DNA from: Desulfofarcimen acetoxidans DSM 771 | Lineage (GTDB): Bacteria; Bacillota; Desulfotomaculia; Desulfotomaculales; Desulfofarciminaceae | Length of the DNA stretch: 64,000 nucleotides | Reading direction: 5' to 3' | Assembly: GCF_000024205.1 (NCBI RefSeq) | Contig: NC_013216.1 | Coordinates: 2,790,001-2,854,000, forward strand | Shown here: positions 11,806 through 61,674 of the stretch, piece by piece | How the letters are laid out: the number at the start of each line of letters is the position of its first letter | How positions within the stretch are numbered: position 1 is the stretch's first letter | Notes under the pieces: generated by a model | What the model saw: only the letters and a program-made list of their open reading frames with translations | Databases searched by the model: none | What the model was told of the DNA's origin: nothing | Translations under genes and position numbers: made by a program

Positions 11806-11818
11806 TTTATTCCCCCGC

Positions 11819-12514
11819 CTATGTAAAAAATATCATCGCGACAGCGCACACCACAAAAAACACGGCCATAACAACTCCGTCAGCAAGGCTTAACTGAATG
11901 CGCCGCAGGCATGTCCTGACGCCGGGATTGTCGATTCCCCTGGCAGAGGCGGAAGCCGCCAGTTCATCGGAGATTTTCAGGCTTCGCATCAGCAGGGGAA
12001 CAAAAGCACACTCAATGGTCATAGTTGGATTTCTTATACATTTTGCCGAAGCAAAGGAAATGCCCCGCAGGCGCATAGCATCGCGTATGGCCGAAAACTC
12101 CCTGGCAATACAGGGCATGAAGCGAAACCCCACGGCCAGGGGAATAACGACTGTTTTCGGCATCCGCAGCTTCTGCAGCGCGGCAATCAATTCACCGGGA
12201 GGCAACGCGGACAAGGCGGAAGCCGCCATGGTTACGGGGATAAAACGCGCCGCGAAAAACGCCATAAACCCGAATATGACAGCGGCCCCCGGCACATAAG
12301 CGTGAATAATATACTGCACACCATACAAAATGCCGAAAGCCAGCAGGTATTGCAGCGCTTTTTTGATCATCCCCTGGATCAGAAGATAAACCGTCATGGC
12401 ACCGATCAAAACAAACAGTCCCGCGTCACCAATTATAAAAGCAAGTATTCCGCATAAAATCAAAACAAACAGTTTTGTACGGGGATCCAAATGAAACATC
12501 ACCTTCGCGCTCAT
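11819..12514 (-). CDS. ECF transporter T component (EcfT/CbiQ family)
   Basis: The 231-residue integral membrane protein opens MSAKVMFHLDPRTKLFVLIL, typical of EcfT (the conserved DPRTK before helix 1), with about five to six hydrophobic helices. The cytoplasmic coupling region contains AIRDAMRLRGISFA and SDELAASASARGID, the two Ala-Arg-Gly-type motifs that contact the ATPases. I place the start at ATG 12514, which overlaps the stop of the upstream ABC gene by four bases (ATGA). A longer in-frame start at 12559 would overlap that gene by 49 bases. Confidence 0.85.
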   Translation of the reverse strand: MSAKVMFHLDPRTKLFVLILCGILAFIIGDAGLFVLIGAMTVYLLIQGMIKKALQYLLAFGILYGVQYIIHAYVPGAAVIFGFMAFFAARFIPVTMAASALSALPPGELIAALQKLRMPKTVVIPLAVGFRFMPCIAREFSAIRDAMRLRGISFASAKCIRNPTMTIECAFVPLLMRSLKISDELAASASARGIDNPGVRTCLRRIQLSLADGVVMAVFFVVCAVAMIFFT

Positions 12515-14256
12515 GATGCTTTCATGCTCCAGCCCGCCGAATGCTGCTGCAGGCTCCACAGGCGGTGATACAACCCTTTCTTCGCCAGCAGCTCTTCATG
12601 CACCCCTTGCTCCGCTACCTTTCCGTCCTCTAAAACGATTATTTTGTCCGCTTCTCTTATGGTTTTCAGGCGGTGGGCAATGATAACAACGGTCTTGTTG
12701 CTGACCAGAGCGCTAATAGCGTGCTGGACCTGGGTTTCATTTTCCGGGTCAAGAGACGCGGTGGCCTCATCAAGAAGCACGATGGGCGCGTCCTTTAAAA
12801 GCGCTCTGGCAATGGATACACGCTGCTTTTCCCCGCCGGAAAGGGTGCAGCCGCCTTCGCCGACAGGCGTATCATAACCCTGAGGCAGCTTCATGATAAA
12901 GTCATGGCAGCAGGCCTGCTTGGCCGCCCATTCAATTTCCTCCTGGGAGGCGTTTATTTTTCCAACCCTGATGTTGTCACGGATGGTATCCTTGAAAAGA
13001 TACACATCCTGAAAGACCATGGAAACGCGGGCCAGCAACTTTTCCGGGTCAACAGCTTTAATATCTTTACTGTCAATCAGCACCCTGCCGCCCTGCACAT
13101 CCCAGAACCTTGCGATAAGACGCGTTATGGTGCTCTTGCCGCTGCCGGAGGGTCCGACCAGGGCCGTAACGCTTTTCGGAGTTATGGAAAAGGACACATC
13201 TTTAAGCACGTCGGTGTTCTCATAAGCAAAGGTGACATTCTGAAACTCAATGCTGTTTCCGGCAGGAGCATTCTTTTCGCCCGGCAGGGGTTTTTCATGG
13301 CGGATTTGCATGATGCGCTCCGCGCTTAAAACAAAATAGCGGATTTCGGCATAGTTTACAAGCACCAAGGTCAGCGGCTCAAATACACGATTACCTAGCA
13401 GTAAAAATAAAAGGAAAACCGGAAGGGTAAGTTCCCCGCCCGCAAGAAGAAAAGTGCCGGTGAAAACCATCAGGGTAAGCCCGGAGCGCATAATGACAAT
13501 GGCCACCATCATAACAGGTCCCATAATGCCCTCCAGCCGGATGGATTCCCTCATTAGACGCACAAAAGCCTCCTGAAGCCGATGAAAACGCTCGCCGCTC
13601 ATATTATGTGATTTAATCTCCCGCATGCCGAGCAGGTATTCCTGCAAGCGGCTGGCACTGTCCACCTTTGCCTGCACATGTTTTTTGCCAAGACGCATTT
13701 GCAAGCCGGTGGAAAGCCATACGATTAAAAAAGATAACGGCAGTGCAATGAACATGGCCAAAGCCATTTTCCAGTCGATAAACAACAATGAAATAAAGGC
13801 TATGACAGGAAAAGCCACTGCGCTGACCAATTGCGGCAGATGGTGTGAAATGGTGGTTTCCACAGCGGTGTAATCACCCAGCATCATGGTTGTCAGGTCA
13901 CCCGGATCACGGCTTCCCAAAAAGCCCAGGGAGAGCTTGCGCAAATGCTCCGCAAGCGTGATGCGCCCGCTCGCCGACGCGTCATATGCGGTAGTAAAGG
14001 TTTTGCTGTAAGCAAAGCCGGAGGCGATGTACTGTACAATCATCCAGCCCGCGAGTATGGCGCATACCGTCCAAAGTCTCGCGGTATTGAGGGGTGTTTC
14101 AGGATTTGCAAAAGACAAATAAATGGTATTGAATACATCAAAGATAAGCGCCGCCGGCAATATTTTGCAGATGCCATCTAAAAAAGAAGCGAAGCAGGGC
14201 ATAAAAAGTGTCCTGGGATTGCCGCTTGATATATTGTAAAAGAAGTTTTTCATCAT
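12511..14256 (-). CDS. ABC transporter, fused permease-ATPase, YbtQ/YbtP-like
   Basis: The 581-residue half-transporter has six membrane helices in the exporter fold (about 15-310) and an ABC domain (about 330-575) with GPSGSGKSTITRL, signature LSGGEKQRVSI and Walker B IVLLDEATASLDPENE. It is paired with the next upstream gene through a four-base ATGA overlap, as expected for a heterodimer. Exporter-fold pairs of this kind (YbtP/YbtQ, IrtA/IrtB) are known to import metal-siderophore complexes. The neighbouring ECF genes and the Fur box favour import rather than drug export. That assignment is inference from context. Confidence 0.82.
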   Translation of the reverse strand: MMKNFFYNISSGNPRTLFMPCFASFLDGICKILPAALIFDVFNTIYLSFANPETPLNTARLWTVCAILAGWMIVQYIASGFAYSKTFTTAYDASASGRITLAEHLRKLSLGFLGSRDPGDLTTMMLGDYTAVETTISHHLPQLVSAVAFPVIAFISLLFIDWKMALAMFIALPLSFLIVWLSTGLQMRLGKKHVQAKVDSASRLQEYLLGMREIKSHNMSGERFHRLQEAFVRLMRESIRLEGIMGPVMMVAIVIMRSGLTLMVFTGTFLLAGGELTLPVFLLFLLLGNRVFEPLTLVLVNYAEIRYFVLSAERIMQIRHEKPLPGEKNAPAGNSIEFQNVTFAYENTDVLKDVSFSITPKSVTALVGPSGSGKSTITRLIARFWDVQGGRVLIDSKDIKAVDPEKLLARVSMVFQDVYLFKDTIRDNIRVGKINASQEEIEWAAKQACCHDFIMKLPQGYDTPVGEGGCTLSGGEKQRVSIARALLKDAPIVLLDEATASLDPENETQVQHAISALVSNKTVVIIAHRLKTIREADKIIVLEDGKVAEQGVHEELLAKKGLYHRLWSLQQHSAGWSMKAS

Positions 14257-16097
14257 ATATTCACCGCCTTCGTTTTTTTATCTTTAGAGAGTGCCCACGC
14301 CCCCGCATCCATATGAGCCGCCCACATGCGGTGGTACAATCCATTCTGTTCGATTAGTTCACCATGTCTGCCCAATTCCACAATTTTCCCCTCACTAACC
14401 ACGAGGATTTGGTCCGCCTCACGGATTGTGGAAAGCCTGTGAGCAATAATAATTACCGTCTTTCCTCTAATAAGTGTGCTTAGCCCTTCTTGTATTTTTG
14501 CTTCGTTTTCCGGGTCGGCAAAAGCTGTTGCCTCATCCAGCACCAGTATAGGAGAGTTTTTCAATATGGCTCTGGCAATGGCTATACGCTGTGCTTCTCC
14601 GCCGGAAAGATAGGTGCCTCCTTCTCCGATTTTGGTCTGATAACCCTGAGGGAGGCGCTCAATAAATTCGTGGCAGCAAGCCGCCTTTGCCGCCTCAATG
14701 ACTTGGGCGCCGGCAGCGTTCGCATGGCCCATGCGGATATTTTCCTCTATGGTGTCATAGAACATGTGCACATCCTGAAACACAAAAGACACGGCATTCA
14801 TGAGGTTTTCGGTTCCCATTTCCCGAATTTCCACGCCGCCTATACGGATGCTGCCCGAGGTTGCGTCCCAAAAGCGGGAAATCAAATTAGCTATGGTGGT
14901 TTTCCCGCTGCCGGAGGGTCCGACCAAGGCAGTTATTTCCTTCTCTTTCGCGGTGAAGGATACACCGGACAGTGCTTCGGTACGGGTTGCGGCATCCTTG
15001 TTGTCATAGGAAAAGCTGACGTTGTCAAATTCTATGGTATAATCCCCGGGCAATTTCGGTTTCATTGGTTCGGCAACAGGCTTTTGGGAGAAAATATCGT
15101 CAATTCGCTCCACACCTTCCGAAATTATCCTCATGTTCCCGCCTAAATTTATCAGTTTCAATATGGGAACCGACAATCCGGGGGCCAGAACAAGGAAAAG
15201 TATTAGGGTTAAAGCAAGCGCCTGGTTATCCGGCTGACCGCTGAGAATCAAAATACCCGCAGGAAGAATAAAGGTCATGATGGATGCCAGTATGGTCAAA
15301 AATACGGTGTAAGGGCGTTTGTAAACCCTGGTGATCTTTACCGCCCAATCACGATAATCCTTAATAGAATTATGAAAACGCAAGAAGGTGCTTACCGTAA
15401 GCCCAAACACCTTGACCGCGGGCATCCCCCGCACATATTCAACACCTGCGGCATTCATCTGCTCCAGTGCGTTATGGTAGCCCTTTGCGTAAAACTTTCC
15501 TTTCTCACCATAAAAAGCGGTGAATTGCGCCCCAAAGGCCCCCATGATTGGAACAGCACAGACGAGCGCCAGGCGCCAATCAAGGATAAACATCGCCATC
15601 AGCATGATCACGGGCAGCGCCACAGCCCCAACAAAATCAGGAAGCTGGTGGGCAATAAAGCCCTCGATTTTCTCCACGCTCATTTCCAGTGTTTTCTTTA
15701 TTGCCCCTGACGACTGTCGTGTATGATAGCCCATGGGGAGCTTTGCCAGATGCTCGGCCAAACGTATTCTAAGGCTGTAAAGGATACGGAAGGCCGATAT
15801 GTGCGAGGCCATGGTGCTGCCGTAAAAAAATATAAGAGATACCAAAAAGGAGAAGAGAGCCCATAACCCCCACTGGCGAATGGCAGCCATATCGCTTAAA
15901 GCCGGATCGGCGGCGTTTTTTAAAAGCTCCTCCACTATAAAGTATATAGCTACAAACGGAATAAACATCAGCATGGTGCTTATTATTGACAATATGCCCG
16001 AAAGGACGAGCAGCCCCCGTTTTTCACCCGCAATCTCCAACAAACGGGGAATGCCGTTTTTTTTCTTTACTCCAGCACTATTATTCATTATTTTCAC
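14253..16097 (-). CDS. ABC transporter, fused permease-ATPase, YbtP/YbtQ-like partner
   Basis: The 614-residue half-transporter has exporter-type membrane helices at about 35-330 and an ABC domain at about 350-600 with Walker A GPSGSGKTTIANL, signature YLSGGEAQRIAIA and Walker B ILVLDEATAFADPENE. The D-loop differs from the usual SLDPE, reading AFADPE, which may mark a degenerate site in the heterodimer. It overlaps both neighbours by ATGA, so its translation is coupled to the S component upstream and to the second half-transporter downstream. A metal-siderophore substrate is inferred from the operon. Confidence 0.82.
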   Translation of the reverse strand: MKIMNNSAGVKKKNGIPRLLEIAGEKRGLLVLSGILSIISTMLMFIPFVAIYFIVEELLKNAADPALSDMAAIRQWGLWALFSFLVSLIFFYGSTMASHISAFRILYSLRIRLAEHLAKLPMGYHTRQSSGAIKKTLEMSVEKIEGFIAHQLPDFVGAVALPVIMLMAMFILDWRLALVCAVPIMGAFGAQFTAFYGEKGKFYAKGYHNALEQMNAAGVEYVRGMPAVKVFGLTVSTFLRFHNSIKDYRDWAVKITRVYKRPYTVFLTILASIMTFILPAGILILSGQPDNQALALTLILFLVLAPGLSVPILKLINLGGNMRIISEGVERIDDIFSQKPVAEPMKPKLPGDYTIEFDNVSFSYDNKDAATRTEALSGVSFTAKEKEITALVGPSGSGKTTIANLISRFWDATSGSIRIGGVEIREMGTENLMNAVSFVFQDVHMFYDTIEENIRMGHANAAGAQVIEAAKAACCHEFIERLPQGYQTKIGEGGTYLSGGEAQRIAIARAILKNSPILVLDEATAFADPENEAKIQEGLSTLIRGKTVIIIAHRLSTIREADQILVVSEGKIVELGRHGELIEQNGLYHRMWAAHMDAGAWALSKDKKTKAVNI

Positions 16098-16726
16098 TTC
16101 GCCTCCACAATTTCTGAGCCCTGTATCAGACCCGATTTGATGAAGTGCCTCTTCAGCATGCTCCAGCCCAGGAGGCAGCCCAGCGCACCGCAGCCGGCGC
16201 CCAAAGCTGCGATGGCCGCCAAAATAAGAGGATCAAAGTAATACAGATTCATCAAAACAAGCTGCTCTGCCGAAAACATGTTGCTAAAGTGCTCGGAAAA
16301 ATACTGCCCCCCGAATATCCAGAGGAGAATTGGACCGAGCAGTCCATTACCGGCGTTAAATACCGACCATGCGACGGTATTGCGTTTGATACTTTGATAA
16401 GAGGATGCCGGTATCATAATAAGCTCTCCGATAATACCCAGAGGCAACATGATAATAAGCAGATGGGGTAAACCCATCAGTGTATAGAACAATCCTCGTA
16501 AAACCGAATGCAGCAGCATTACTCCCCGCTTGCCGACTTTAAAGGCAAGCAGCAGGTAAATGGGTGCGGTAACCATCCCTGTTAAAGGTGCTCCGGCTAT
16601 TAAGGCAAATCCCATAAACGGCATAGTAAGCACTCCGACAGCCATACCAACAACCGTTAACAGTGTTGTCAGTATGCCTATTAAAACCAAATCCTTAACG
16701 GTAAGTTTTATAGCTTTTTCTTTCAT
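16094..16726 (-). CDS. MptD-family ECF transporter S (substrate-binding) component
   Basis: The protein (210 residues from ATG 16726) opens MKEKAIKLTVKDLVLIGILT and has about six hydrophobic helices with the glycine-rich FMGFALIAGAPLTGMVTAPI segment typical of MptD/Trep_Strep-type S components. The start is chosen because GGAGGT lies six bases ahead; a longer reading frame adds 13 residues without a ribosome site. S components bind the substrate in the membrane and dock on the T/A module, here encoded in the same operon. MptD-type components are found with exporter-fold ABC pairs in Firmicutes, as here. Confidence 0.8.
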   Translation of the reverse strand: MKEKAIKLTVKDLVLIGILTTLLTVVGMAVGVLTMPFMGFALIAGAPLTGMVTAPIYLLLAFKVGKRGVMLLHSVLRGLFYTLMGLPHLLIIMLPLGIIGELIMIPASSYQSIKRNTVAWSVFNAGNGLLGPILLWIFGGQYFSEHFSNMFSAEQLVLMNLYYFDPLILAAIAALGAGCGALGCLLGWSMLKRHFIKSGLIQGSEIVEAK

Positions 16727-16770
16727 ACCAATACCTCCGTATGTATTAAAACGGATTTTGTACAAAACGT

Positions 16771-17787
16771 TTACTTACGGCCAACTTCCATATCTATTGG
16801 TCCCATGGCCATATCCAGGGTAGTGCCGCGCACCGACCTGAAACCCGCCCGAAGCATGGCATCAGCTATAAAGCCCTGTTCAAACGCCACGTCCCACCCC
16901 AGCATGGCCACCGGCAGCCATCCCAGCACCATAATTTCAGGTCTGGTCATTTCATGAGTCAAGCCATCGGTAACCACAACACATACTCCACCCGGATTAA
17001 GCGCATCATATATTTTCTTCATTACGGGGTCGATATTCTCTTTGGCAACATTCAGAGTCGCCATGGCCAGAACCAGATCATAGTTCTCCCCGATGGAGTC
17101 GGTTAAATAGTTTCCTCCCATAACCTCCATCCTGTCTCCCATCTCATACTCCTTGATGTAGGTTTGACTCACCTTAACCACCTCCGACTGATCAAAAACA
17201 ACCCCTTTCATGGAAGGATGCCTGTCTACAATGGCCATGCCAATCAGCCCCGGCCCCCCGCCCAGGTCGAGCATTTTCCGAAAACCCTCGAATTCCGGCA
17301 ACTGGGAGATAAGCTCAGCAAAATATTGCGCTATTCCCGCCCTTTCGTAGTTGGCATTGTATAACGCTGACCGCGCCCACATCTCTTCGGAGCCCAAATC
17401 ACCCCGAGAAGATGGCGGCGGAGGTCCCTCTTTTATAAGCCCGGTCAATTCTTGAAATTGTCCGAACCGGTGGAAGTTATTCATGAAAAACTCTCCCAGA
17501 TAGGTATCACGGCCTTCCACAAGAAAAACTTCAGCTTCATTACTATTTTTATACAAGCCGTTCTTCTTCTCCAAAAGCCCGCACGCCGCCAATCCGTCCA
17601 GGAAAAAACGCGTGTTGCCCGGATCTCCGCCGATAAGCCTGGCTACCTCATTGGCCGGTTTTGCTTCAGCCAGGCAACTAAAAACTTTTAGCTCAATAGC
17701 TGTTAACAGCAGCTTTGACCGCACCTGTCCCATTAAAATGTTATACAGGTTCTTATAACTGATGTCTACCTTAGGAAAGTTTTTCAT
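16771..17787 (-). CDS. SAM-dependent methyltransferase (O-methyltransferase family, dimerisation domain)
   Basis: The 338-residue protein has an N-terminal winged-helix dimerisation region (about 1-100; GQVRSKLLLTAIELKVFSCL) and a Rossmann methyltransferase domain with motif I MLDLGGGPGLIGMAI near residues 168-182 and GGNYLTDSIGENYDLVLAM. This is the architecture of plant-type and antibiotic O-methyltransferases. It is the first gene of the putative metal-complex uptake operon, directly behind a Fur box at 17835-17849, and 45 bases ahead of the S component start. It could tailor or release an imported siderophore, but no substrate can be read from the sequence. Confidence 0.8.
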   Translation of the reverse strand: MKNFPKVDISYKNLYNILMGQVRSKLLLTAIELKVFSCLAEAKPANEVARLIGGDPGNTRFFLDGLAACGLLEKKNGLYKNSNEAEVFLVEGRDTYLGEFFMNNFHRFGQFQELTGLIKEGPPPPSSRGDLGSEEMWARSALYNANYERAGIAQYFAELISQLPEFEGFRKMLDLGGGPGLIGMAIVDRHPSMKGVVFDQSEVVKVSQTYIKEYEMGDRMEVMGGNYLTDSIGENYDLVLAMATLNVAKENIDPVMKKIYDALNPGGVCVVVTDGLTHEMTRPEIMVLGWLPVAMLGWDVAFEQGFIADAMLRAGFRSVRGTTLDMAMGPIDMEVGRK

Positions 17788-17834
17788 CCAAATACCTCCT
17801 TGAATTTTATACTTGTTTATAACTTATGCGAGAA

Positions 17835-48308: not shown

Positions 48309-48365
48309 TTTATCTCCTCCTTGTAAAAAGAATGCTCTCCGAGCTTTACAGGAATATAGTAATAA

Positions 48366-51092: not shown

Positions 51093-52082
51093 CTACAAAC
51101 TTTTAGTGTATTCCGATGGATTGAAACCATACTTTTTCCTAAATTTCTCAGCAAAGTGGCTGGCGTCATTATAGCCTACGTGCAATACCGCCTCAGTAAC
51201 ACCCAGCTTTTTATACTCCAACAAAAACCGTGCCATCTCCAACCTTTTATCAATGACATAGGCATGAACAGGCATGCCAAACAACCCCTTAAAGCCGTTT
51301 TTAAGCTTATATTCATTAAGGCATACCAGCCTGGCAAGCTCTCCTATCGTTGGCGGAGATATAATATTTTCATCAAGAACCCTTCTGGCTTTATGAAGCG
51401 CCTCCATATCAGATGAAGAAAGCTTGACTGAGGAATGCCGTGATCCTTTTTCAAAGATTAGTTCATCCATATAAACGCCAATCAATTCCAGTATTTTCCC
51501 TTCAAGATATATCCTTTTTATATTATCCCGATAAGGGCAATGGCTTATATCATTTAGAATCCGCTTGATGTTGTATGAAAATTTTCTTTTATAAAAAATA
51601 CTGCTTCCAAGTAATCCGGTGCAAGAGTGCTCTTTTTCCATATAATGAATAAGACTTTTTATCACTTCAGAGTCTAACTGTATGCTTACCCCCCAAAACC
51701 GCTGACCTGGATTGAAGCTGCATATACTTTTTACCTGATTTCCGCTGAATATATAGTTTTCTCCGCATTCTATTTCATATTCCTCTTTATTCCCTTCCAG
51801 CCTCCACCGGAATTGATCTCCCAGGCAAAAAGCAAAACAATACTGGGGATTGCCCTGTCCTCCCACCATTGTCATACGTTCAAAAAAAGTCACATCGGAT
51901 ATATTTATTTCCATTGAGGGTTTGACAATAATTCTCTGGTAATAACCCTTTCCAAATTGTTTTGGTATTTCCGTCTCTATCTGAAACGAATCCGATCTGT
52001 AAATGCTGTTAAGCACGGCACATACAGTGCAATTTTCGTTTTTCGGATTAAAAACCTTATATTTTGGAGCCATATTTTCCAT
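51093..52082 (-). CDS. AraC-family regulator of the YbtA/PchR kind
   Basis: The protein (329 residues from ATG 52082, behind GGTGGA; a TTG at 52094 adds four residues) has a C-terminal AraC domain (about 230-329): PTIGELARLVCLNEYKLKNGFKGLFG and VTEAVLHVGYNDASHFAEKFRKKYGFNPSEY. The N-terminal 200 residues are a beta-rich sensor resembling PchR and YbtA, which activate siderophore genes when they bind the ferric siderophore. It faces the same way as the biosynthesis genes and ends at the terminator repeat before the Fur box of the thioesterase operon. No Fur-like box is obvious in front of it (52083-52215). Confidence 0.88.
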   Translation of the reverse strand: MENMAPKYKVFNPKNENCTVCAVLNSIYRSDSFQIETEIPKQFGKGYYQRIIVKPSMEINISDVTFFERMTMVGGQGNPQYCFAFCLGDQFRWRLEGNKEEYEIECGENYIFSGNQVKSICSFNPGQRFWGVSIQLDSEVIKSLIHYMEKEHSCTGLLGSSIFYKRKFSYNIKRILNDISHCPYRDNIKRIYLEGKILELIGVYMDELIFEKGSRHSSVKLSSSDMEALHKARRVLDENIISPPTIGELARLVCLNEYKLKNGFKGLFGMPVHAYVIDKRLEMARFLLEYKKLGVTEAVLHVGYNDASHFAEKFRKKYGFNPSEYTKSL

Positions 52083-52215
52083 AATATCCACCAATCTTTC
52101 AATAATAATAACCGATATCTACATATTGTAAAAAGAGTCCTCCTTTCAACCAACTAGCCAGGAAAGTGTTGCAAAACTCTTTTTCCTTCGGCGAATCAAA
52201 TATTTATAACATTGT

Positions 52216-52253: not shown

Positions 52254-55200
52254 TTATTTACCCATATTTTCCATCATCCTGGCCACCATTGCCGCCGCTT
52301 CGGCGCGGGTGGCGCTGTCACCGGGCGCAAAGAGGTTGCCCGGTTTTCCTTTGATAATACCCTGCTCCACGGCTTCGGCCACATAGCCCCTGGCCCAATC
52401 CGCGACGGCGCCGGCATCGCTGAAGGTCAACGCCTCCGGTCGCAACGTATCGATTTGCTTACCCATGGCTCGCACGATTATTACCGCTATCTCGGCGCGG
52501 TTGATCAGCCGGTCGGCCTGGAAGGTGCCGTCTTCGTAGCCACTTAAAGCACCATTCTCCACTGCGGCGGCAATACTGCCCCCGGCCCAGGGAGGGATAA
52601 CGCCGGAATCTGCGAAATCAAGTCCGGTGGACGAAGGCTGCCATCCCATGGCTTTTACCAGCAACACTGTGAATTCAGCCCTGGTGATATTGTTTTCCGG
52701 CTTAAAGCTGCCATCCGGGTACCCCTTCATAATGCCTTCCCGGTAGAGTTTTGCAATGTCACCGGCAGCCCAGTGCCCCGCAGGCACATCGGGATACGGC
52801 ATCTTCGGGTGGTCGGCTTCCTCCACAGGAACGGACTGTTTACCGGTGGTAAAGCTCCATTGGATTTCTCTGTTGTAGTAGGCAGAGGAACTGGATCCCT
52901 GGCGCTTCACCGCCCCGGAGGGGATATTGACCATGTAATTCACCCCGGGGTCAAAGGCGTCATGAGACAGGCTCAGTTTCTTACCGCTCAAGGTGGCTTT
53001 CACGCCGCCCACTTTGTTTCCGGCGGCGTCTTTGAGGGTAATGCCATCCAGAGAAGTATCGGAAACTGCTTCCACCGTCACGTCGAAGGTTACACTTACC
53101 TCGACGTCCGGAGCAATATCTGCGGCATCCTTCGCCGGAACATACACGTCAACCTCCGGTCGTGAGGAAGAGCTGCCGCCACCGCCGCCTCCTCCCGAGC
53201 CTGTCTCGCTTACCAACAGGCAGGTCAGGATTTTATCTGCCGTTTGCCAGCGCAGCTTCTCTTCCACCTGGCTTCTCAGGCTCTGAAATCCCTGTTTTTC
53301 TTCAGCGGTGGCAGTACCGTTTACCACCTTGGCCTTTAAACTGAAGAAGTCTTCAGGAAAGACCTCCGGCCCAGGCTTGATAACTATGGACCGGCCCGTA
53401 GATTTGTTTGTCACCCTGTAAGTATAAAGATCAGGAGTTGTATAAATGGAATCATTAATTGTTTCGTCAAAAGAATAATTCCCCACACCGGCAATCATTT
53501 TCAGTGTATATTCCGTGCCATCGGAAGGATTATAGGCAATTACTTTGATATACTCCTGCCGGGGAACTTCGTTTGCCCACAATTGATCAAAGGCAACCTG
53601 CATCGCCCGGAAGGCAAAGGATCCGCAGACACAAACCTTTCCGTCTTCTTCTATGCCGACGTCTGAATACGAAATCGAGAGCAGATTGTCACCCTGTTTA
53701 ACCTGAAGGGAACCCAGCACAGCATCATTGGCGCGGGCTGAAATTAAGTGAGAAATATTGTTGTGCGGCAATAAAGAACGCTGCCCTGCCGTGGGATATA
53801 TATATTCTAAACCAGCCAGTACCGACGGGATCTTATTGCTGGTAAGAGTGCCTTCAGAAAGCATAACCGGCATGACAATTAGTGAAGCACCGGGGTGAGC
53901 TGTTTGCCGGTCTTCTACCACTGCCCGTAGTCCTGGTTCACCTACGGCGGCAAAACCATAGTCCACATCTAAAAAACCATGTTTTTCTTTAAGTTTTTGA
54001 CCCAGCGAAGTCAGGTTATGCTTCCAGACTGCCAGTTCCTCAGTTGACGATGTTCCGTGCGCGGCTAACACCACCACTTCCTGAGCGGCTTGCTGACTAA
54101 CTGAAGCGATGCGATCGTTCAGAATGCCAGCCACCAGAATATGATCATCCAGCGCAGGGGTCAATTCAATGACGGCGCTGTGCTGAATCGGCTCCAAACC
54201 CTCCGCGACTGCCTCCTCAGGGGTGATGGAACTGGGTAACCCCAGCATATACTTAATTTCCTCTATATGACCTGAGGCTGAAGCAACGAAAATTGGTACG
54301 GCAATGATGCGTTCCACACCCTGTGCCTCCAGTTTTCGAATAGCTGTAGGAATATCCTTACCCGGAACAGATTCCAGGAAACCGGCTTCTACCGGGAAAG
54401 GGCTTTTTACGTTCTGAACCGCGTCAATGACAGGCTGGTTCCAACTGTCCTGGCCTGAACCATGGGCCAAAACCAGGATACCGGTACTGCCTGACTGAAC
54501 CGTTTCCAGGGTGAACAGCTGCTCCAGGCTATCCCAGCGCAGCTTTTCCACCAACTGGACACGCTTGGCTTGAAACTCTTGCTTTTCCTCCGAAATGGCT
54601 GTTCCCTCTTTGACTTTTTTCTTCAGTTCAAAGAAGTTCTCCGGATATACTTCCGGTTTGACAGTGATGTTGACGGCTTTTCGGTTGAGCTTATCCGTTA
54701 CCTTAAAATTATAGAAACCTGTATTCTGTTCCCGATCCTCCAAACTGAAGTGGCCGCTGCCCGTAATTCTTTCCAGCGCGGCTTCCACTCCGTCGGAATA
54801 AGGACCTTGAACATAGATCCTATCTTGCTCAGGTATTTCACCGGGCCAAAGCTCAGCTAGAGCTGCCTGCATCGCTCGAAAAGCAAAGGATCCACAAACA
54901 CAAAATTTACCGTCCTCCTCCAGCGCCACATCGGTATAGTTGACCGGAGAAAGATCGCCTTCCTTTTTAATCTCCAAGGGCGGCAGAACCACGTCATTCA
55001 CCCTTAACTCAATAAAGCGGGCAATATTTGAATGAGGCATTAAAGCTCTGTTACCGGCATCCGGATAGCGGTAATCTAAGTCAGTCAATAGTGTATGTGG
55101 GATTACCGTGTCGGTAAAGTACCCTTCACTCAACATCACCGGCACCACCAGCACATCCCCCTGGTAAACGGCTTTGTAAACCGAATCACGAACGGAGGGC

Positions 55201-55880
55201 TCGCCCATAAGCGCAAAACCATAGCCGGCATCCTTTAAATTGAGTAAAGCTTTTAGACGGCCGGCCAGAGATTCAAAGGTTTCCTGCCACTTTTGCCGGC
55301 CTTCCCCGGTATCCGGACCGTGCCCCACCAGCACGGCTATTTCCTCGCTTGGATTCTGACTGATGGTCTTCAACCGGTCGGCCAGGATTCCCGCCACCAT
55401 CACATGGTCATCCAGGGCCGGGGTTAGCACAATCTCAGCCCCGGTATCCACCGGCGTCAGATCCTCTTCTTCGATGCCATCCCCGCCTCCGCCGGGGTGC
55501 CCTCCGGCAGGTTCCTCCGCTTCCGGAAGATCAGGTCTCAAGCCCAACACATATTTAATCTCTTCGATATGGTTGGAATAAGAAGAAATAAACAGGGGCA
55601 CGGCAATGATTTTATCAACACCCCTCGCTTCCAAAGCTTCTACCGCGGCATGAATATCCGGCTCGGTAAATTCCAAGAAACCCAACTCCACAGGATAAGG
55701 CAGAGCGATCTCTGCTACCGCCTGCTGAACCGTAGCGTTCCATGAGGCTTCATCGGAGCCGTGGGCCACCACCAGAACACCTATATTTTCTTCCGCGGCC
55801 CCGCAAAACGGGACAACGTAAAACATATCCAAAAGCAGCAGTAAAATCACAGCAAGCCCTTTAATACCGGACCTAAACAT
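52254..55880 (-). CDS. S-layer-anchored protein with two CbiX-like and two FmdE-like units
   Basis: The 1208-residue protein has a signal peptide (1-28, cleavage near CGA-AEE). Two long repeats follow (about 30-450 and 485-900). Each has two CbiX/sirohydrochlorin-cobaltochelatase-like halves (VLVVAHGSDEASWN, IAVPLFISSYSNHIEEIKYV, VLVGHGPD; second copy LVLAHGSGQDSWN, VLAAHGTSS) with the metal-binding His of the HG motif. Each then has an FmdE-like stretch (EEDGKFCVCGSFAFRAMQAA; EEDGKVCVCGSFAFRAMQVA) with paired cysteines. A Gly/Ser linker leads to an Ig-like SbsA domain (about 925-1025) and three SLH domains (1035-1208) that bind cell-wall polymers. Chelatases are normally cytoplasmic, so a surface role in metal or tetrapyrrole binding is inferred. 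It follows the siderophore locus and has a weak Fur box upstream. Confidence 0.8.
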   Translation of the reverse strand: MFRSGIKGLAVILLLLLDMFYVVPFCGAAEENIGVLVVAHGSDEASWNATVQQAVAEIALPYPVELGFLEFTEPDIHAAVEALEARGVDKIIAVPLFISSYSNHIEEIKYVLGLRPDLPEAEEPAGGHPGGGGDGIEEEDLTPVDTGAEIVLTPALDDHVMVAGILADRLKTISQNPSEEIAVLVGHGPDTGEGRQKWQETFESLAGRLKALLNLKDAGYGFALMGEPSVRDSVYKAVYQGDVLVVPVMLSEGYFTDTVIPHTLLTDLDYRYPDAGNRALMPHSNIARFIELRVNDVVLPPLEIKKEGDLSPVNYTDVALEEDGKFCVCGSFAFRAMQAALAELWPGEIPEQDRIYVQGPYSDGVEAALERITGSGHFSLEDREQNTGFYNFKVTDKLNRKAVNITVKPEVYPENFFELKKKVKEGTAISEEKQEFQAKRVQLVEKLRWDSLEQLFTLETVQSGSTGILVLAHGSGQDSWNQPVIDAVQNVKSPFPVEAGFLESVPGKDIPTAIRKLEAQGVERIIAVPIFVASASGHIEEIKYMLGLPSSITPEEAVAEGLEPIQHSAVIELTPALDDHILVAGILNDRIASVSQQAAQEVVVLAAHGTSSTEELAVWKHNLTSLGQKLKEKHGFLDVDYGFAAVGEPGLRAVVEDRQTAHPGASLIVMPVMLSEGTLTSNKIPSVLAGLEYIYPTAGQRSLLPHNNISHLISARANDAVLGSLQVKQGDNLLSISYSDVGIEEDGKVCVCGSFAFRAMQVAFDQLWANEVPRQEYIKVIAYNPSDGTEYTLKMIAGVGNYSFDETINDSIYTTPDLYTYRVTNKSTGRSIVIKPGPEVFPEDFFSLKAKVVNGTATAEEKQGFQSLRSQVEEKLRWQTADKILTCLLVSETGSGGGGGGGSSSSRPEVDVYVPAKDAADIAPDVEVSVTFDVTVEAVSDTSLDGITLKDAAGNKVGGVKATLSGKKLSLSHDAFDPGVNYMVNIPSGAVKRQGSSSSAYYNREIQWSFTTGKQSVPVEEADHPKMPYPDVPAGHWAAGDIAKLYREGIMKGYPDGSFKPENNITRAEFTVLLVKAMGWQPSSTGLDFADSGVIPPWAGGSIAAAVENGALSGYEDGTFQADRLINRAEIAVIIVRAMGKQIDTLRPEALTFSDAGAVADWARGYVAEAVEQGIIKGKPGNLFAPGDSATRAEAAAMVARMMENMGK

Positions 55881-55986
55881 TTCATTCCTCCTCCTAAGTT
55901 AATTAATAATCAAAGCGCTTTAGGCTTGATAAAAAAAACTCCCATTAACGACAGTCCATAAGGGGAAAATGAAAGATCAATACTTA

Positions 55987-56079
55987 TCAACTATCCAAAG
56001 GTTCATCCTGGCCATCATCATGTTCGATTCTTTCCAGGCCAACATCTTTCAAAATTTCGTTTATTAGATCAATTGTCAT
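55987..56079 (-). CDS. 30-residue acidic small ORF upstream of the SLH protein
   Basis: ATG 56079 stands behind a strong AAAGGAGGTG ribosome site and encodes MTIDLINEILKDVGLERIEH and ten more residues, with a very acidic tail. It is 107 bases upstream of the SLH protein start on the same strand. The length and charge suit a small regulatory or leader peptide. I know no family. The ribosome site is the main reason to believe it is translated. Confidence 0.5.
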   Translation of the reverse strand: MTIDLINEILKDVGLERIEHDDGQDEPLDS

Positions 56080-56147
56080 CGTAACACCTCCTTTCTGGAT
56101 CCATAACTCGGATTCCAACTTTGTCTTTTCCTTTCCCTCAGCGCTAA

Positions 56148-56162
56148 TGACTCTCATTCTCA
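56148..56162 (-). promoter_or_regulatory. Weak Fur-like box before the small ORF/SLH gene
   Basis: TGACTCTCATTCTCA matches the Fur consensus at 10 of 14 arm positions and is 69 bases upstream of the small ORF. It is weaker than the other boxes and might be fortuitous. Confidence 0.35.
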
Positions 56163-56500: not shown

Positions 56501-56513
56501 TCCATAACAAAAT

Positions 56514-56554
56514 AGCAGTAAAATGATAATTAAAATCATTATCATTTTACTGCT
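56514..56554. repeat. 16-bp perfect dyad with Fur-like core
   Basis: AGCAGTAAAATGATAA (56514-56529) and its exact complement TTATCATTTTACTGCT (56539-56554) flank a 9-base loop. It could be a terminator-like hairpin; the TGATAA/TTATCA arms also resemble Fur half sites. It sits just after the IS66 remnant and 138 bases before the next gene. Confidence 0.6.
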
Positions 56555-56691
56555 ATCATTATAGACAATCATTTTCTCCTTTGTCAATAGATTAATTGGC
56601 AATAATAACAAAAAAATCTGTTGAATTATATATTATTTTCTTCGATAATTCTTAATTTCACCAATAATACTAATACTGTTATCCCGTAAAT

Positions 56692-57485: not shown

Positions 57486-58085
57486 TTACTTTATTATGCT
57501 AGCAGTGTAATAGTTATTGTGATGACTTTCAATATTTTCAACAATAATATTACAATTAAGCCAAGAGAGTTTCTCTTTTATTTTTCTACCCAAAGTGGTC
57601 AAAATCAGCTTTTGCGGCATTTTTTTTGAGGCAAAGTCTCCCTCCAAAAACAAAACAATTTTTATTTTGTTTTTCTCTGAAGATATATTGTTCGACCTGA
57701 TAAAATTAAAATACTTCTTCAATACGTTGCTATGTGTTTGAAATTGTGGCTGAGAATGTGCACCACACAAACATGCTAATGTCATTGCTACTTTTTTTGG
57801 TATTTCAATATCAAGGCTGTCCCGGTCATCGGTGTCAACCATTGTTGCGGTTGTATCACGTTTGCTATTATTAGCAAAAATTCTCCATCTATTGTCGCTC
57901 TCGTATCCGGCACAATTTTTGACTTCTATTAGCATAAGAGTATCATCCGAATTTAGAATGAAATCTACTCCCTTGCCTCCAGTTAATTTCTTAAAGTAAT
58001 TTTGGTAATATCCAGTATCATCAAATTTATCTACAGTAAGTTTATCGTTAAATTCAAAGACGATGCCACTTTCATCGATCCTCAT
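57486..58085 (-). CDS. Putative PD-(D/E)XK nuclease, partner of the AAA ATPase
   Basis: From ATG 58085 (behind AGAGG; a longer frame to 58139 overlaps the previous gene by 68 bases) the product is 199 residues. It contains KGVDFILNSDDTLMLIEVKN: an Asp, about ten residues, then Glu-x-Lys on a beta strand, the catalytic core of PD-(D/E)XK nucleases. A C-terminal alpha/beta region follows. Its start overlaps the end of the AAA gene by 14 bases, so the two are co-translated. ATPase plus nuclease pairs of this size are typical of phage-defence modules, and the location among transposase scraps agrees. I do not recognise a named system. Confidence 0.6.
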   Translation of the reverse strand: MRIDESGIVFEFNDKLTVDKFDDTGYYQNYFKKLTGGKGVDFILNSDDTLMLIEVKNCAGYESDNRWRIFANNSKRDTTATMVDTDDRDSLDIEIPKKVAMTLACLCGAHSQPQFQTHSNVLKKYFNFIRSNNISSEKNKIKIVLFLEGDFASKKMPQKLILTTLGRKIKEKLSWLNCNIIVENIESHHNNYYTASIIK

Positions 58086-59106
58086 AGAATAACCTCTGTT
58101 CTCTATCATAAAGGTGATCAAATTCTTGCATAATAGCATTATGCTGTAAATCTAACAATGTAGGGCCGGATTCAAAAAAGATACTATCATCTTCCTTATA
58201 AAGGCAAATGAATTTAACATCAATATTATCCAGAGTAAGCTGTTTATACTCGGAAATCATGGAAAAACTCTGCTGTACAAAGTAGTCATGTGTCGCAATA
58301 AAAATTTGGACTCCCATGGTTGCTAGTACTACTAAAGCTTGTACTATCGGTTCTATCATTTTAGGATTCATATTTGTCTCCGGCTCATCCCAAAATAGAA
58401 TTGAGTTATTATTTAAACTTCCAGAAAGGATTAAATATATAATAGTTGAAAGTTTTCGATATCCTTCGGAAAGCAAACCCATCTCAAACTCACCTTGTCC
58501 ATCCACTTTAAGGTAAAACTTCTTACCCCTTTGAATTATGTTTCCATTTATTATTCTATTAAAGCTTTCCAATATTTTATTTTGCTTAGCAGTATTTGCT
58601 CCACGCTTTAACGGCTTATCAAGTAAAAGAGCCAAATCATAATAAGTTTCTTCAAAAGCAATATGGTATTCTTTGTATAATGAAGTAAAATTCTCTGTAG
58701 CCGAGATTATTTCTTTAGGTGGAAAATATATTGGCTCAACTGCTTTTACGAATCTTCTTAAGGTTTGCCCGATATTCACATGCTTTTCTTTATTTGTACT
58801 AAAACTAAATTCAAGTTTAGAATTACTATTTACTGTTATAACTATATCAGAACGATTTCTTCCCTGAATGCGTGTAACTAAACGTCCAATTTTATCATCA
58901 TCAGGTCTAAAAACGCCTTGAAGCTTTGAAACTAAAAGATTTTCATTCTGTTCTTTTGTTAACTCTGACTTGGCTTTGTTAGCCTCACTTATTGATTTGG
59001 TTACCGAATACAACAGTTTTAAAATAGCCGTCTTACCAGTGCTGTTTTCTCCGCTAATAATATTGATATTCTTGGAAAAATCAATATTAAGGGAATTAAA
59101 AAGCAT
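58072..59106 (-). CDS. AAA ATPase (OLD/AAA_21-like, SMC-type)
   Basis: The 344-residue protein opens with a Walker A, NIISGENSTGKTAILKLLYS (residues about 14-33). It has an ABC/SMC-like signature region (GLLSEGYRKLSTIIYLI), Walker B NSILFWDEPETNMNPKMI and a His switch, FIATHDYFVQQSF. This is the ATPase part of OLD-type proteins without the TOPRIM nuclease. The nuclease activity may be supplied by the next gene. ATG 59106 is behind AAGGA. The upstream region to 59400 is AT-rich with no gene. Confidence 0.8.
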   Translation of the reverse strand: MLFNSLNIDFSKNINIISGENSTGKTAILKLLYSVTKSISEANKAKSELTKEQNENLLVSKLQGVFRPDDDKIGRLVTRIQGRNRSDIVITVNSNSKLEFSFSTNKEKHVNIGQTLRRFVKAVEPIYFPPKEIISATENFTSLYKEYHIAFEETYYDLALLLDKPLKRGANTAKQNKILESFNRIINGNIIQRGKKFYLKVDGQGEFEMGLLSEGYRKLSTIIYLILSGSLNNNSILFWDEPETNMNPKMIEPIVQALVVLATMGVQIFIATHDYFVQQSFSMISEYKQLTLDNIDVKFICLYKEDDSIFFESGPTLLDLQHNAIMQEFDHLYDREQRLFYEDR

Positions 59107-59400
59107 AAAATCCTTAAGAAATAATTTGCTAATATAAATTATCTACACCTCTTTCTTGCTAATCAATTATTCCCTAATTGATTATGACACAATCAATTTA
59201 TCCCGTAGTCAAGTCGGAATATCAATAGTATGAATATGGCATTTATCATTTCATCATAGAAGGAAATTATACCTCATTATTTTGTATTCATTTTACATTA
59301 TTAGGTGGAATCTATCAATAGATATTTATTATGTATTCCAAGAGAAATTTATAATAAAAGCAAAACTTATCAAATAAATGTATGTTTTATTATGATATAT

Positions 59401-59436
59401 AAGAACTCGCTAGCTACTAAACGCTAGCGAGTTCTT
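59401..59436. repeat. 14-bp perfect hairpin containing the right copy of the flanking repeat
   Basis: AAGAACTCGCTAGC (59401-59414) pairs exactly with GCTAGCGAGTTCTT (59423-59436) around an 8-base loop. The right arm contains AACGCTAGCGAGTT (59420-59433), identical to 57450-57463. It may be a mobile-element end or a terminator (ATTTTAT follows). The stretch 59437-59736 shows no gene I can support. Confidence 0.65.
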
Positions 59437-59736
59437 ATTTTATCCCTACATATTCCATGTCACACCCGCCTAACTCACAACTAATTACCTAAGTGTAACC
59501 CCCACGGGGGACATTTCTTCGAAATATATTGATTAAAGTTAAGTTTAGCAACAATGCTACAATAAAGAGTCAATAGATGAATATTCGCATTGCCTCTTTG
59601 TATAGTTGGGGACATTGTCAATAAATAAACATATGTTGGGAGTGCCCTATGCATATACCTGTTTGGCGGAGCCACTGTTCCAGTAAGCAGTGAAGCACTT
59701 CAAAAGGTGGTTCTATCTCAGAATATTATTCACAAT

Positions 59737-60030
59737 TTAATAAACTACACTTTTCTTTGCCGCTGGGTAGCGAAAACCTAAGTATTGATGATGCACAGTA
59801 TCAGGCCGATGAGTCATAGCAACCCGTTCTAAAAAGTTTTTAATTTCATCCGGTTTGACACTACAAATCTGAAATTTATTAGTACCACGCCTTTCAGCCA
59901 GATCATTTGCCCAGCGCATACAGGCATCTTTGTAGTCATCAAACATCTTGGCACCGGTAATAGAAGCAACCATCTTTCCTTGAACCTTAAGTTCCGATTT
60001 TTTCTTACCAAATCTTTTACTCATTCCCAA
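59737..60030 (-). pseudogene. Possible tyrosine-recombinase N-terminal fragment
   Basis: The 97-residue frame reads FDDYKDACMRWANDLAERRG ... VKPDEIKNFLERVAMT, a helical pattern like the SAM-like core-binding domain of tyrosine recombinases. It ends without a catalytic domain. Short, from memory, and could be another small phage or plasmid protein. Confidence 0.35.
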
Positions 60031-60222
60031 TAGCCCATATATAAGCTTTCAGGTTTTTGATTGATTACACCAGCGGATTCAGTGCAGCCTTCGCTTACGC
60101 CACGGAAAGCAATAAATTTAATCTTCAATTAACTACCTTGCCATATAAAGTTATTCTTGTAATGTCAAACAAAATAGTTATAAAATGAATTGAAGATTTA
60201 TTGATTAATAGAAGGTGAGCCT

Positions 60223-60406
60223 ATGAATACTTTTTGGGTAAACCCCGGGGGAAATGTTATTGAATTCCTTTTAGCTTGTTTTTTTTGGATCATTATCATT
60301 TTTTACCGGATATAAATTGCGAAAATTAATTCCGCGGGAGCAAAGATTTACAGTTGGTTTTTTTGGAATGGTAATAATTGATTCCCTGTTTTTAGCTTAC
60401 GTTATG
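60223..60406 (+). pseudogene. Small membrane-protein gene, frameshifted and interrupted by IS605
   Basis: ATG 60223 follows GAAGGTG and encodes MNTFWVNPGGNVIEFLLACF, then stops at 60315. In the +1 frame the sequence continues GSLSFFTGYKLRKLIPREQR, FTVGFFGMVIIDSLFLAYVM up to the IS605 edge at 60406. A shift in the run of eight T near 60279-60286 would join them. Beyond the element, 62130-62141 (GTT AAA GAT TAA) restores an end, giving a protein of about 64 residues with two membrane helices. Function unknown. Confidence 0.55.
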
Positions 60407-60573
60407 GTGAACTACCCCCGCCTACGTTCCACTAAGAAGCGGGGGCTTCCAAAGGAACATCAACGAGCGTTTCCTGATTCATCAGCCACGGCCTACCGTT
60501 ACAAAGAGCAATAGGTCTTACACGGCCTCCAGCAGGCATGATTTCGGGCGGTCCCCGCCCTACAACTATATAT
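60407..60573 (-). ncRNA. Presumed omega (reRNA) guide region of TnpB
   Basis: In TnpB systems the guide RNA is read through the 3' end of tnpB and the right end of the element, with the guide itself copied from flanking DNA. Here that would be the minus strand from inside tnpB to about 60407, ending in the CCCCCGC/GCGGGGG hairpin, with the guide taken from bases just below 60407. Placement is from family knowledge, not from a motif search. Confidence 0.4.
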
Positions 60574-61674
60574 CTAAGCCACTAGCATTTCTAAGCCACG
60601 ACGTTCTATCAATATGGCTGACACCAAATCCCTGGGCATAACCATTCCACAAGCAGGACACCGGTGCACTCTGACACTCAAATCCTTTGGCACATTGGCA
60701 CCACAAAGACATGTCTGGGAAGTGCCATGAGGAGGGACAGGAAGAAATATCTTACCATATCTGTGACATTTATACTCAACAAGGTTTCTGAATGTACCCC
60801 ATGAAGCATCATGTATGCTTTTAGCTAGACGGTGGTTTTTGACCATATTTTTGATTCGCAGATCTTCCATGATAATAATGTCATGGCTTTGAGCTATCTC
60901 AAAGCTTGTCTTATGCAAAAAGTCTTTTCGTTGATTAGTTATCTTGGCATGAAGTTTGGCAACCTTAGTTTTGGCTTTCCCTCGGTTGTTAGAACCTTTC
61001 TTTTTGCGGGAGAGTCTGCGCTGTTGTTTAGCTAACTTCTTTTCCGATTTAAGATAGTACTTTGGGGTTTCTATCTCTGTACTGTCAGACAGTACGGCAA
61101 AATGCTCAAGACCCATGTCTATTCCGGTGGATTTGGTTCTGTCAGTAAGATTTTCGGCTACTTCCACTTCGGCTGTCAAATTAGCGTACCACTTACCACC
61201 GTAATACTTTATGTTAACCCTGGATATTTGACTGGCATCAAATTCCCGGTAAGTTGTCATTTTTACGAAACCTATTTTAGAAAGATAAATTTTACCCGGC
61301 TTAGAGAAAGTTTTATTTACAGCATCCACCTGGGGATAGGTAAATGATGTGTAATGGTCACGGTTTTTGAACCGGGGGTATCCGGCTTCTTTGGCAAAAA
61401 ACCGCTGATAGGCAAAGTCTACCCGGCGCAAAGTATCCTGCATTACCTGACTGTGAACTTGCTTGTATTCCAGATGTTCTTTTGTATAGCCCGGCAGCAT
61501 ATTCTGCTGTTTATTATATGTCAACCCTTGGCCGGTTTCTTTATACACACGCTGACGCTCAGATAAAGACCAGTTATAGAGTTTCCGGCAAAGTTTTAGT
61601 GTGTGAAACATTTTTTTCTGTTGCTCTTTGGTCGGACGCATTTCAAACCGGTAGACAATTTGCAAACGATTCAC
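60574..61674 (-). CDS. tnpB: TnpB, RNA-guided nuclease of IS605
   Basis: The 366-residue protein has the N-terminal HTH-like region (YRFEMRPTKEQQKKMFHTLK), RuvC-I GIDMGLEHFAVLSD, RuvC-II HDIIIMEDLRIKNMV, a four-cysteine zinc finger (TCLCGANVP ... CPACGM) and RuvC-III PRDLVSAILI. The three catalytic acids (D, E, D) are all present. The RuvC-III stretch differs from the usual LDRDVNAA in MPRDLVSA but keeps RD. Length is normal (about 360-400). It should be an active guide-RNA-dependent DNA nuclease if expressed. TnpA of the same element is broken. Confidence 0.88.
   Translation of the reverse strand: MNRLQIVYRFEMRPTKEQQKKMFHTLKLCRKLYNWSLSERQRVYKETGQGLTYNKQQNMLPGYTKEHLEYKQVHSQVMQDTLRRVDFAYQRFFAKEAGYPRFKNRDHYTSFTYPQVDAVNKTFSKPGKIYLSKIGFVKMTTYREFDASQISRVNIKYYGGKWYANLTAEVEVAENLTDRTKSTGIDMGLEHFAVLSDSTEIETPKYYLKSEKKLAKQQRRLSRKKKGSNNRGKAKTKVAKLHAKITNQRKDFLHKTSFEIAQSHDIIIMEDLRIKNMVKNHRLAKSIHDASWGTFRNLVEYKCHRYGKIFLPVPPHGTSQTCLCGANVPKDLSVRVHRCPACGMVMPRDLVSAILIERRGLEMLVA

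Follow-up and report, generated by a model that had tools for sequence, protein, structure and literature searches.

An exported CbiX-FmdE protein of Desulfofarcimen acetoxidans as a candidate cell-surface chelatase for tetrapyrrole-bound iron

Chelatases with the CbiX-type fold are normally cytoplasmic, where they put metals into haem- and vitamin B12-like rings. What could such a fold do in a protein that appears to be exported and held in the cell wall? The question is raised by a gene in a stretch of 64,000 nucleotides from Desulfofarcimen acetoxidans DSM 771 (NC_013216.1, positions 2,790,001 to 2,854,000; the genome is a single contig of 4,545,624 bases), which as a whole we call the window. 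The open reading frame at 52254-55880 of the window, on the minus strand, has an ATG start and a GGAGG ribosome site, and encodes a protein of 1208 residues, P0001. We propose that P0001 may be an iron-regulated, wall-anchored class II chelatase-fold protein for tetrapyrrole-bound iron, which would run the chelatase reaction in reverse and deliver Fe2+ to FeoB. Judged from sequence comparison and modelling, we give this reading a probability of roughly 0.45.

P0001 contains two CbiX-FmdE units and SLH domains

A preliminary description of this DNA had listed a signal peptide, two CbiX-FmdE-like repeats, an immunoglobulin (Ig)-like domain and three SLH domains, all of which were confirmed. The features of the gene, all on the minus strand, are as follows.

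52254-55880, minus: exported protein P0001, with signal peptide, two CbiX + FmdE units, Big_5 and three SLH domains (open reading frame, translation, Pfam, FmdE tests)
54996-55787, minus: first CbiX domain (unit 1, residues 32-295), carrying H40, E70, H104 and H187 (Pfam, alignment, AlphaFold2 model and fold match)
54507-54974, minus: FmdE domain of unit 1, residues 303-458, with CVCG at 327-330 (Pfam 27.1 bits, hhalign, model and 2glz fold match)
53727-54488, minus: second CbiX domain (unit 2, residues 465-718), carrying H473 and H538; its nearest homologues are those of Methanosarcina (Pfam, residues, tree)
53220-53702, minus: FmdE domain of unit 2, with CVCG at 750-753 (aligned with unit 1 and family members)
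52845-53165, minus: Ig-like Big_5 domain (residues 906-1012), preceded by a glycine/serine linker (Pfam 35.5 bits)
52293-52799, minus: three SLH domains for cell-wall anchoring (PF00395 at 52671-52799, 52485-52616 and 52293-52427)

The signal peptide, MFRSGIKGLAVILLLLLDMFYVVPFCGAA, is evident, as judged by eye only. In the Pfam scan, with all values above the curated cut-offs, CbiX scored 157.8 bits over four stretches, so that each unit holds both chelatase halves, Big_5 scored 35.5 bits and SLH 135.7 bits, with the three copies expected of SLH surface proteins. The whole-protein scan gave no match for FmdE, for a CobN/ChlH class I chelatase domain or for a NEAT domain. Scanned alone, the FmdE region of unit 1 reached 27.1 bits against a cut-off of 22.9 (PF02663), and Pfam matched this domain in seven of nine members of the chelatase-like family. 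Profile-profile comparison of the region with true FmdE (hhalign) gave E=1e-12, and the model of the FmdE unit matches the fold of PDB 2glz with a probability of 1.00 and a template modelling (TM) score of 0.62. Together, the single-domain score, the hhalign result and the fold match rule out a false resemblance to FmdE. The CVCG cysteines are kept in both units, as the preliminary description had stated, and the second cysteine of the pair is nearly invariant across the family. In P0001, CxC replaces the canonical HxC metal motif of FmdE, and an HxC-like motif appears only in some archaeal members.

The chelatase fold is present with an apparently altered active site

The CbiX domain of unit 1, modelled with AlphaFold2 from an alignment of 23 homologues, reached a predicted local distance difference test (pLDDT) value of 89 and shows the two-lobed, SirB-type chelatase fold. 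The match to SirB has an E value of 1.6e-9 and a TM score of 0.75 of the target, and that to FetB/IhtB (PDB 9b86) an E value of 2.5e-6; the nearest solved structures are SirB, Porphyromonas gingivalis FetB, periplasmic CbiK and CfbA.

The HG histidines singled out in the preliminary description are kept (H40, H187 and H473). Metal-type residues have not been lost from the family: H40, E70, H104 and H187 do not vary across 23 aligned units. H40 and E70 align with His10/Glu43 of SirB and His9/Glu42 of CfbA, which are metal ligands (PMC11301274). The chelatase-type histidine pair is real, except that its second member is out of register: in alignments both with CfbA and with the CbiX of the same genome, H104 falls one residue further from the conserved proline than the canonical second metal histidine (SirB His76, CfbA His75). 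This shift made us abandon the claim that SirB's three metal ligands are all retained. From the pseudo-symmetry within the domain, H187 is expected at the position of SirB Arg134; in the SirB variant R134H, the histidine is proposed as a base catalyst (PMC11301274). With H40 and E70 matched, H104 shifted and H187 in the predicted Arg134 place, the active site appears to be retained but altered.

Homologues recur beside FeoB and other metal-uptake genes

The preliminary description proposed checking whether homologues sit near metal-uptake genes, and they do; consistent linkage to other pathways did not appear. A feoB gene lies within ~8 kb of the chelatase gene in 13 of 38 host genomes (loci L002, L004, L005, L006, L007, L008, L021, L029, L031, L040, L048, L052 and L056), often directly upstream. 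Among the 36 mapped host genomes, whose near or not-near entries were set by hand with some distances approximate, 11 have a FeoB_C site within 10 kb against 0.5 expected (~1e-12 were the genomes independent). Other uptake genes also recur. FecB/FecCD/FecE-type genes are downstream in L001 and L005, and L007 has a FecB-type gene; a ZnuA-type set adjoins the chelatase gene in L033 and L037; YbtPQ-like ATP-binding cassette (ABC) transporter pairs adjoin it in L002, L024 and L048 and lie ~9 kb away in genome G017. Iron-dependent repressors of the DtxR/Fur type, DUF2325 and small S-adenosylmethionine methyltransferases are also recurrent neighbours, and CobN-type (class I chelatase) genes flank the chelatase gene in Syntrophaceticus, with others nearby in G065, G634 and G536.

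Some of these neighbourhoods are worth recording in themselves. In Syntrophaceticus schinkii (L004), both chelatase classes share one locus, a single contig of 35.7 kb (NZ_CDRZ01000273) having four CobN-type matches around FeoAB and the CbiX-FmdE gene. In G243 (L066, 100-4432), NifH, two nitrogenase-component-1-like genes and FecCD are found upstream of the genes for AraC, the YbtPQ-like transporter and the CbiX surface protein; tetrapyrrole reductases are known among nitrogenase-like enzymes. The source genome itself also encodes a CbiK-like lipoprotein (L059 7753-8700, minus strand; G000:C1 at ~572.9 kb) that adjoins FecCD/FecE/FecB-type and cobI-like genes, and is probably the counterpart of the Desulfovibrio periplasmic CbiK.

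Fur-type boxes precede the chelatase gene

Three features were found upstream of the gene.

55987-56079, minus: open reading frame of a 30-residue acidic micro-protein, member of a dispersed family (Shine-Dalgarno site; conserved in L001 and L023)
56143-56161, minus: weak Fur-type box GAGAATGAGAGTCATTAGC, lying 63 nt ahead of the start of the micro-protein; L001 and L023 have near-perfect boxes in this position
56512-56556, no strand assigned: perfect inverted repeat with 19-nt arms and a Fur-type box with one mismatch at 56525-56543

The weak Fur-like box announced in the preliminary description is present and, like the acidic open reading frame, has counterparts in two related genera; the box in the inverted repeat, 0.38 kb further out, is stronger. 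A Fur protein may bind these palindromes. The window contains 26 matches to TGATAATNATTATCA at no more than three mismatches, where 5.2 would be expected, and none of 100 shuffles reached that number. Exact sites for the 19-mer GATAATGANNTTCATTATC number three in G017, all at the chelatase locus, and lie in two places in G023, one of them preceding the chelatase gene. Fur-type boxes also flank feoB in G000, the source genome, as well as in G017 and G023.

The family extends from Gram-positive anaerobes to Methanosarcinales

A single contig scan found homologues in Desulfotruncus, Syntrophaceticus, Ammonifex, Moorella, Desulfofundulus, further loci from metagenome-assembled genomes and Methanosarcina spelaei. 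Whole-genome searches retrieved them from 8 of 113 genomes of the class, 30 of 186 genomes from the order to which M. spelaei belongs and 9 of 398 in a sample of the phylum, six of these nine being of a short, signal-less type. Architectures vary: the window protein has two units plus SLH, L001 and L023 also have two units but end in another C-terminal region, which to the eye resembles a copper-amine-oxidase N-type domain, and others, e.g. L003 and L005-L008, combine one CbiX with two FmdE and SLH. The archaeal members are large surface proteins with one to four CbiX domains.

In the tree, unit 2 of the window protein clusters with Methanosarcina, at a branch support of 100/98, whereas unit 1 is placed elsewhere; P0001 therefore unites two old lineages, which rules out a recent tandem duplication of its two units. 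From this topology, transfer of the family from one domain of life to another is probable.

Further members were noted in passing. Family f40 (L025-L028) consists of signal-less CbiX-type proteins of ~260 residues with the same shifted histidine, located beside a YerC-like regulator and a diacylglycerol-kinase-like gene; its short matches (G134 and others) served as outgroup. An archaeal region (G647:C1 ~4281600-4295600; L030, L048) contains a frame of 4229 residues with three full CbiX and GLUG-like repeats, together with an additional fragment containing a stop. In L056 (5451-6227, minus strand), a stand-alone exported FmdE-like protein adjoins the CbiX-FmdE protein.

Comparison with known systems

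Exported class II chelatases are already known, namely FetB and periplasmic CbiK. FetB/IhtB of P. gingivalis, tied to iron/haem acquisition as a putative reverse ferrochelatase (PMC13227078; PMC13402209), resembles P0001 in having an exported class II fold, the export of P0001 being deduced from its signal peptide and SLH domains. However, FetB has a single domain, is associated with the outer membrane and lacks FmdE, SLH and tandem units; the sequence profile did not retrieve it, and it was matched by fold only. Periplasmic CbiK of Desulfovibrio vulgaris (PDB 2xvx) is likewise an exported class II fold in a sulfate reducer, but belongs to the CbiK family and has no FmdE or SLH; the source genome has its own, separate CbiK-type lipoprotein beside cobI/btuFCD-like genes. 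SirB, CbiX and CfbA share with P0001 the fold and two metal-ligand positions. They are cytoplasmic and biosynthetic, whereas the P0001 family is exported, Feo-linked and has the second histidine shifted by one residue; the usual linkage of class II chelatases to the cytoplasm and tetrapyrrole biosynthesis does not hold for P0001, with its signal peptide, SLH domains and uptake-gene neighbours.

A parallel to the proposed logic comes from another protein family. HmuS is a proven dechelatase, a chelatase running in reverse that releases Fe(II) for FeoB (PMC12583661), and use of haem iron by Bacteroides fragilis requires FeoAB and CobN-like proteins (PMC6460266). HmuS and BtuS, which are CobN-like and accompany FeoAB in Bacteroides, share with our proposal metal removal outside the cytoplasm followed by FeoB (PMC12583661, PMC6460266), but they are membrane-bound, NADH-dependent class I chelatases, and for the P0001 family the putative partnership with FeoB is a genomic linkage in 13 loci only and not in the source genome. 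As to the second domain, the FmdE-like protein of Desulfitobacterium (PDB 2glz) has the same fold and stands alone, whereas the FmdE of P0001 is fused, exported and carries CxC instead of HxC. The SLH/NEAT haem-capture proteins of Bacillus (BslK type) follow a similar logic of SLH-anchored capture, but use NEAT, an Ig-like fold, which the Pfam scan did not find in P0001. In all, the P0001 family may function in the manner of HmuS or FetB but appears to belong to neither family, being CbiX-type, FmdE-fused and wall-anchored.

The preliminary description knew no described function for this architecture, and in the open-licence papers that we searched for CbiX combined with S-layer or FeoB, we found neither the CbiX-FmdE fusion nor its SLH anchoring, its spread across Gram-positives and Methanosarcinales or its feoB linkage described. 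Iron uptake from haem by anaerobes was directly demonstrated only in 2025, in Bacteroidota (HmuS, PMC12583661), and a survey from 2021 considered iron import and haem use mechanisms still undescribed in methanogens (PMC8351635). The family would supply candidates for haem-iron uptake in sulfate reducers of the Desulfotomaculum type, in thermophilic anaerobes related to them and in Methanosarcinales. If this is true, a chelatase fold has been repurposed as a cell-surface component, and a problem for which Bacteroidota use HmuS would have been solved a second time, independently.

Proposed function and rival explanations

The iron and dechelation reading rests on the fold match to SirB, FetB, CbiK and CfbA, the invariant residues, the feoB linkage, the Fur-type boxes and the FecBCD, YbtPQ-like, ZnuA-type, iron-dependent repressor and CobN-type neighbours; reverse chelation is proposed by analogy with HmuS and B. 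fragilis. Its parts deserve different confidence. These data point strongly to a role in iron acquisition, which is very probable, and favour to a lesser degree a tetrapyrrole as the ligand; catalytic dechelation by P0001 is a tentative proposal, with somewhat less than an even chance.

The sequence of events might be as follows. Iron limitation would lift a Fur-type repressor off the upstream palindromes, and P0001, once exported, would be anchored in the wall through its SLH domains, a location suggested by the domain content. Each CbiX cleft, from its fold and conserved residues, may then take a metallo-tetrapyrrole, either haem or a sedimentary metalloporphyrin. With the metal gripped by H40, E70 and H104, protons donated to the ring by H187 or by acidic residues would free Fe2+, in what would be the ferrochelatase reaction reversed. 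In the weakest step, the cysteine-bearing FmdE domain might receive or relay the metal. Finally, as the gene neighbourhoods suggest, Fe2+ would enter via FeoB, or the whole complex via FecBCD- or YbtPQ-type transporters.

Several observations weigh against this proposal. The residue corresponding to the canonical third metal ligand sits one position away from its usual place, and nothing evident at the cell surface could provide electrons or energy. The nearest feoB in the source genome is ~1.1 Mb from the chelatase gene, and the linkage is missing in the two closest bacterial relatives and in many archaeal loci, of which several lie on short contigs. Also, the host genomes are not independent samples, contrary to what the ~1e-12 figure assumes.

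The altered third ligand also agrees with the strongest rival, in which P0001 is a non-catalytic, haemophore-like surface receptor that passes the metallo-tetrapyrrole intact to FecBCD/YbtPQ-like importers, with iron freed inside the cell. FecBCD or YbtPQ-like genes do adjoin several family members, and Bacillus offers a precedent in its SLH-anchored NEAT-type haem-capture proteins. Nevertheless, the metal-ligand residues are invariant across bacteria and archaea, and FeoB, to which the family is linked, carries free Fe2+; we consider this rival unlikely, although it deserves to be kept in mind.

The preliminary description saw the protein, encoded next to the siderophore locus, as a possible surface binder of metal, haem-like compounds or metal-siderophore that feeds the uptake operon. 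Surface display, the domains, the metal-type residues and the iron-type regulatory context all survive from that view; a tie to the siderophore locus is not supported. The genes concerned are these.

51093-52094, minus: AraC-family regulator gene, downstream of the chelatase gene (Pfam, blastp, loci)
30718-50876, minus: salicylate/thiazoline-type siderophore genes (Pfam; Fur-type boxes at 48361 and 50956)
10333-17787, minus: operon for an O-methyltransferase, a Trep_Strep-type membrane protein, a YbtPQ-like ABC pair, CbiQ and an ABC ATPase (Fur-type box at 17830)

A receptor or release factor for this siderophore is suggested by adjacency, the common strand, and the shared Fur-type boxes and AraC gene in the source genome. 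Counterparts of this AraC gene, 70-73% identical by blastp, lie next to the chelatase gene in G023 and within its cluster in L001. However, Desulfotruncus (L001, L064) and G023 have the protein and the AraC gene with no non-ribosomal peptide synthetase (NRPS) gene in the stretches read (~33 kb and ~19 kb), and the Methanosarcina loci have no siderophore-type NRPS cluster. We downgraded the siderophore-specific role because relatives keep the gene without NRPS nearby, and now regard it as improbable. The recurrent partners are instead FeoA/FeoB, FecBCD-type and YbtPQ-like transporters, and DtxR/Fur-type control.

Equally doubtful is a plain surface metal-binding or scaffold protein, with chelatase and FmdE domains holding ions without a tetrapyrrole; the feoB linkage and the metal-binding type of FmdE (2glz family) would suit it, but a two-lobed, tetrapyrrole-type cleft and its pocket residues have been kept across two domains of life. 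P0001 might also insert or exchange a metal, such as Mn, Co, Zn or Ni, in porphyrins scavenged outside the cell, a role proposed for FetB with manganese protoporphyrin IX (MnPPIX). This reading has little to recommend it, because iron-type boxes and feoB linkage indicate iron shortage and not porphyrin metalation, even if class II chelatases handle several metals (PMC11301274) and FetB-dependent MnPPIX is reported (PMC13402209).

Reverse chelation at the surface is thus the reading we prefer. Extended to the whole family, it would mean that Gram-positive anaerobes and Methanosarcina-type archaea share horizontally exchanged surface class II dechelatases, fused to FmdE, that strip tetrapyrrole iron outside the cell for FeoB, independently of the HmuS solution. 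From the sequences compared, this generalization is possible, and slightly more speculative than the function proposed for P0001 itself.

Micro-protein and other genes of the window

The acidic 30-residue open reading frame upstream of the chelatase gene, also listed in the preliminary description, is real: it has a good Shine-Dalgarno site and occupies the equivalent position in L001 and L023. To the L001-type query, the window copy is 73% identical and the G023 copy 63%. It belongs to a family of ~23-45 residues, with the core M-T-[KE]-E-L-I-N-E-I-L-E-S-[IV]-G-L-E-[RK]-I-E and an acidic tail, present in 60 of 113 class genomes, against 0 of 113 for a reversed-peptide control. The source genome has six copies, one in the window and the others at G000:C1 2583925, 3578839, 2897127, 900902 and 3897564. 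Copies precede unrelated genes, with good Shine-Dalgarno sites where inspected, and because of this dispersal we rejected the micro-protein as a dedicated partner of the chelatase.

The siderophore genes at 30718-50876 comprise a fused salicylate-AMP ligase and salicylate synthase, two NRPS genes, a thiazolinyl imine reductase, a phosphopantetheinyl transferase, a thioesterase and a CysM-like gene. Together with the operon at 10333-17787, whose YbtPQ-like pair (12511-16097) has relatives near the chelatase gene elsewhere, they form an equibactin/yersiniabactin-like siderophore system in a strict anaerobe (compare PMC3672683). Upstream of the locus, at 57486-61674, a DUF6661 gene overlaps an AAA_21 (AbiEii-type) ATPase gene, and there is also an IS605 OrfB/TnpB gene.

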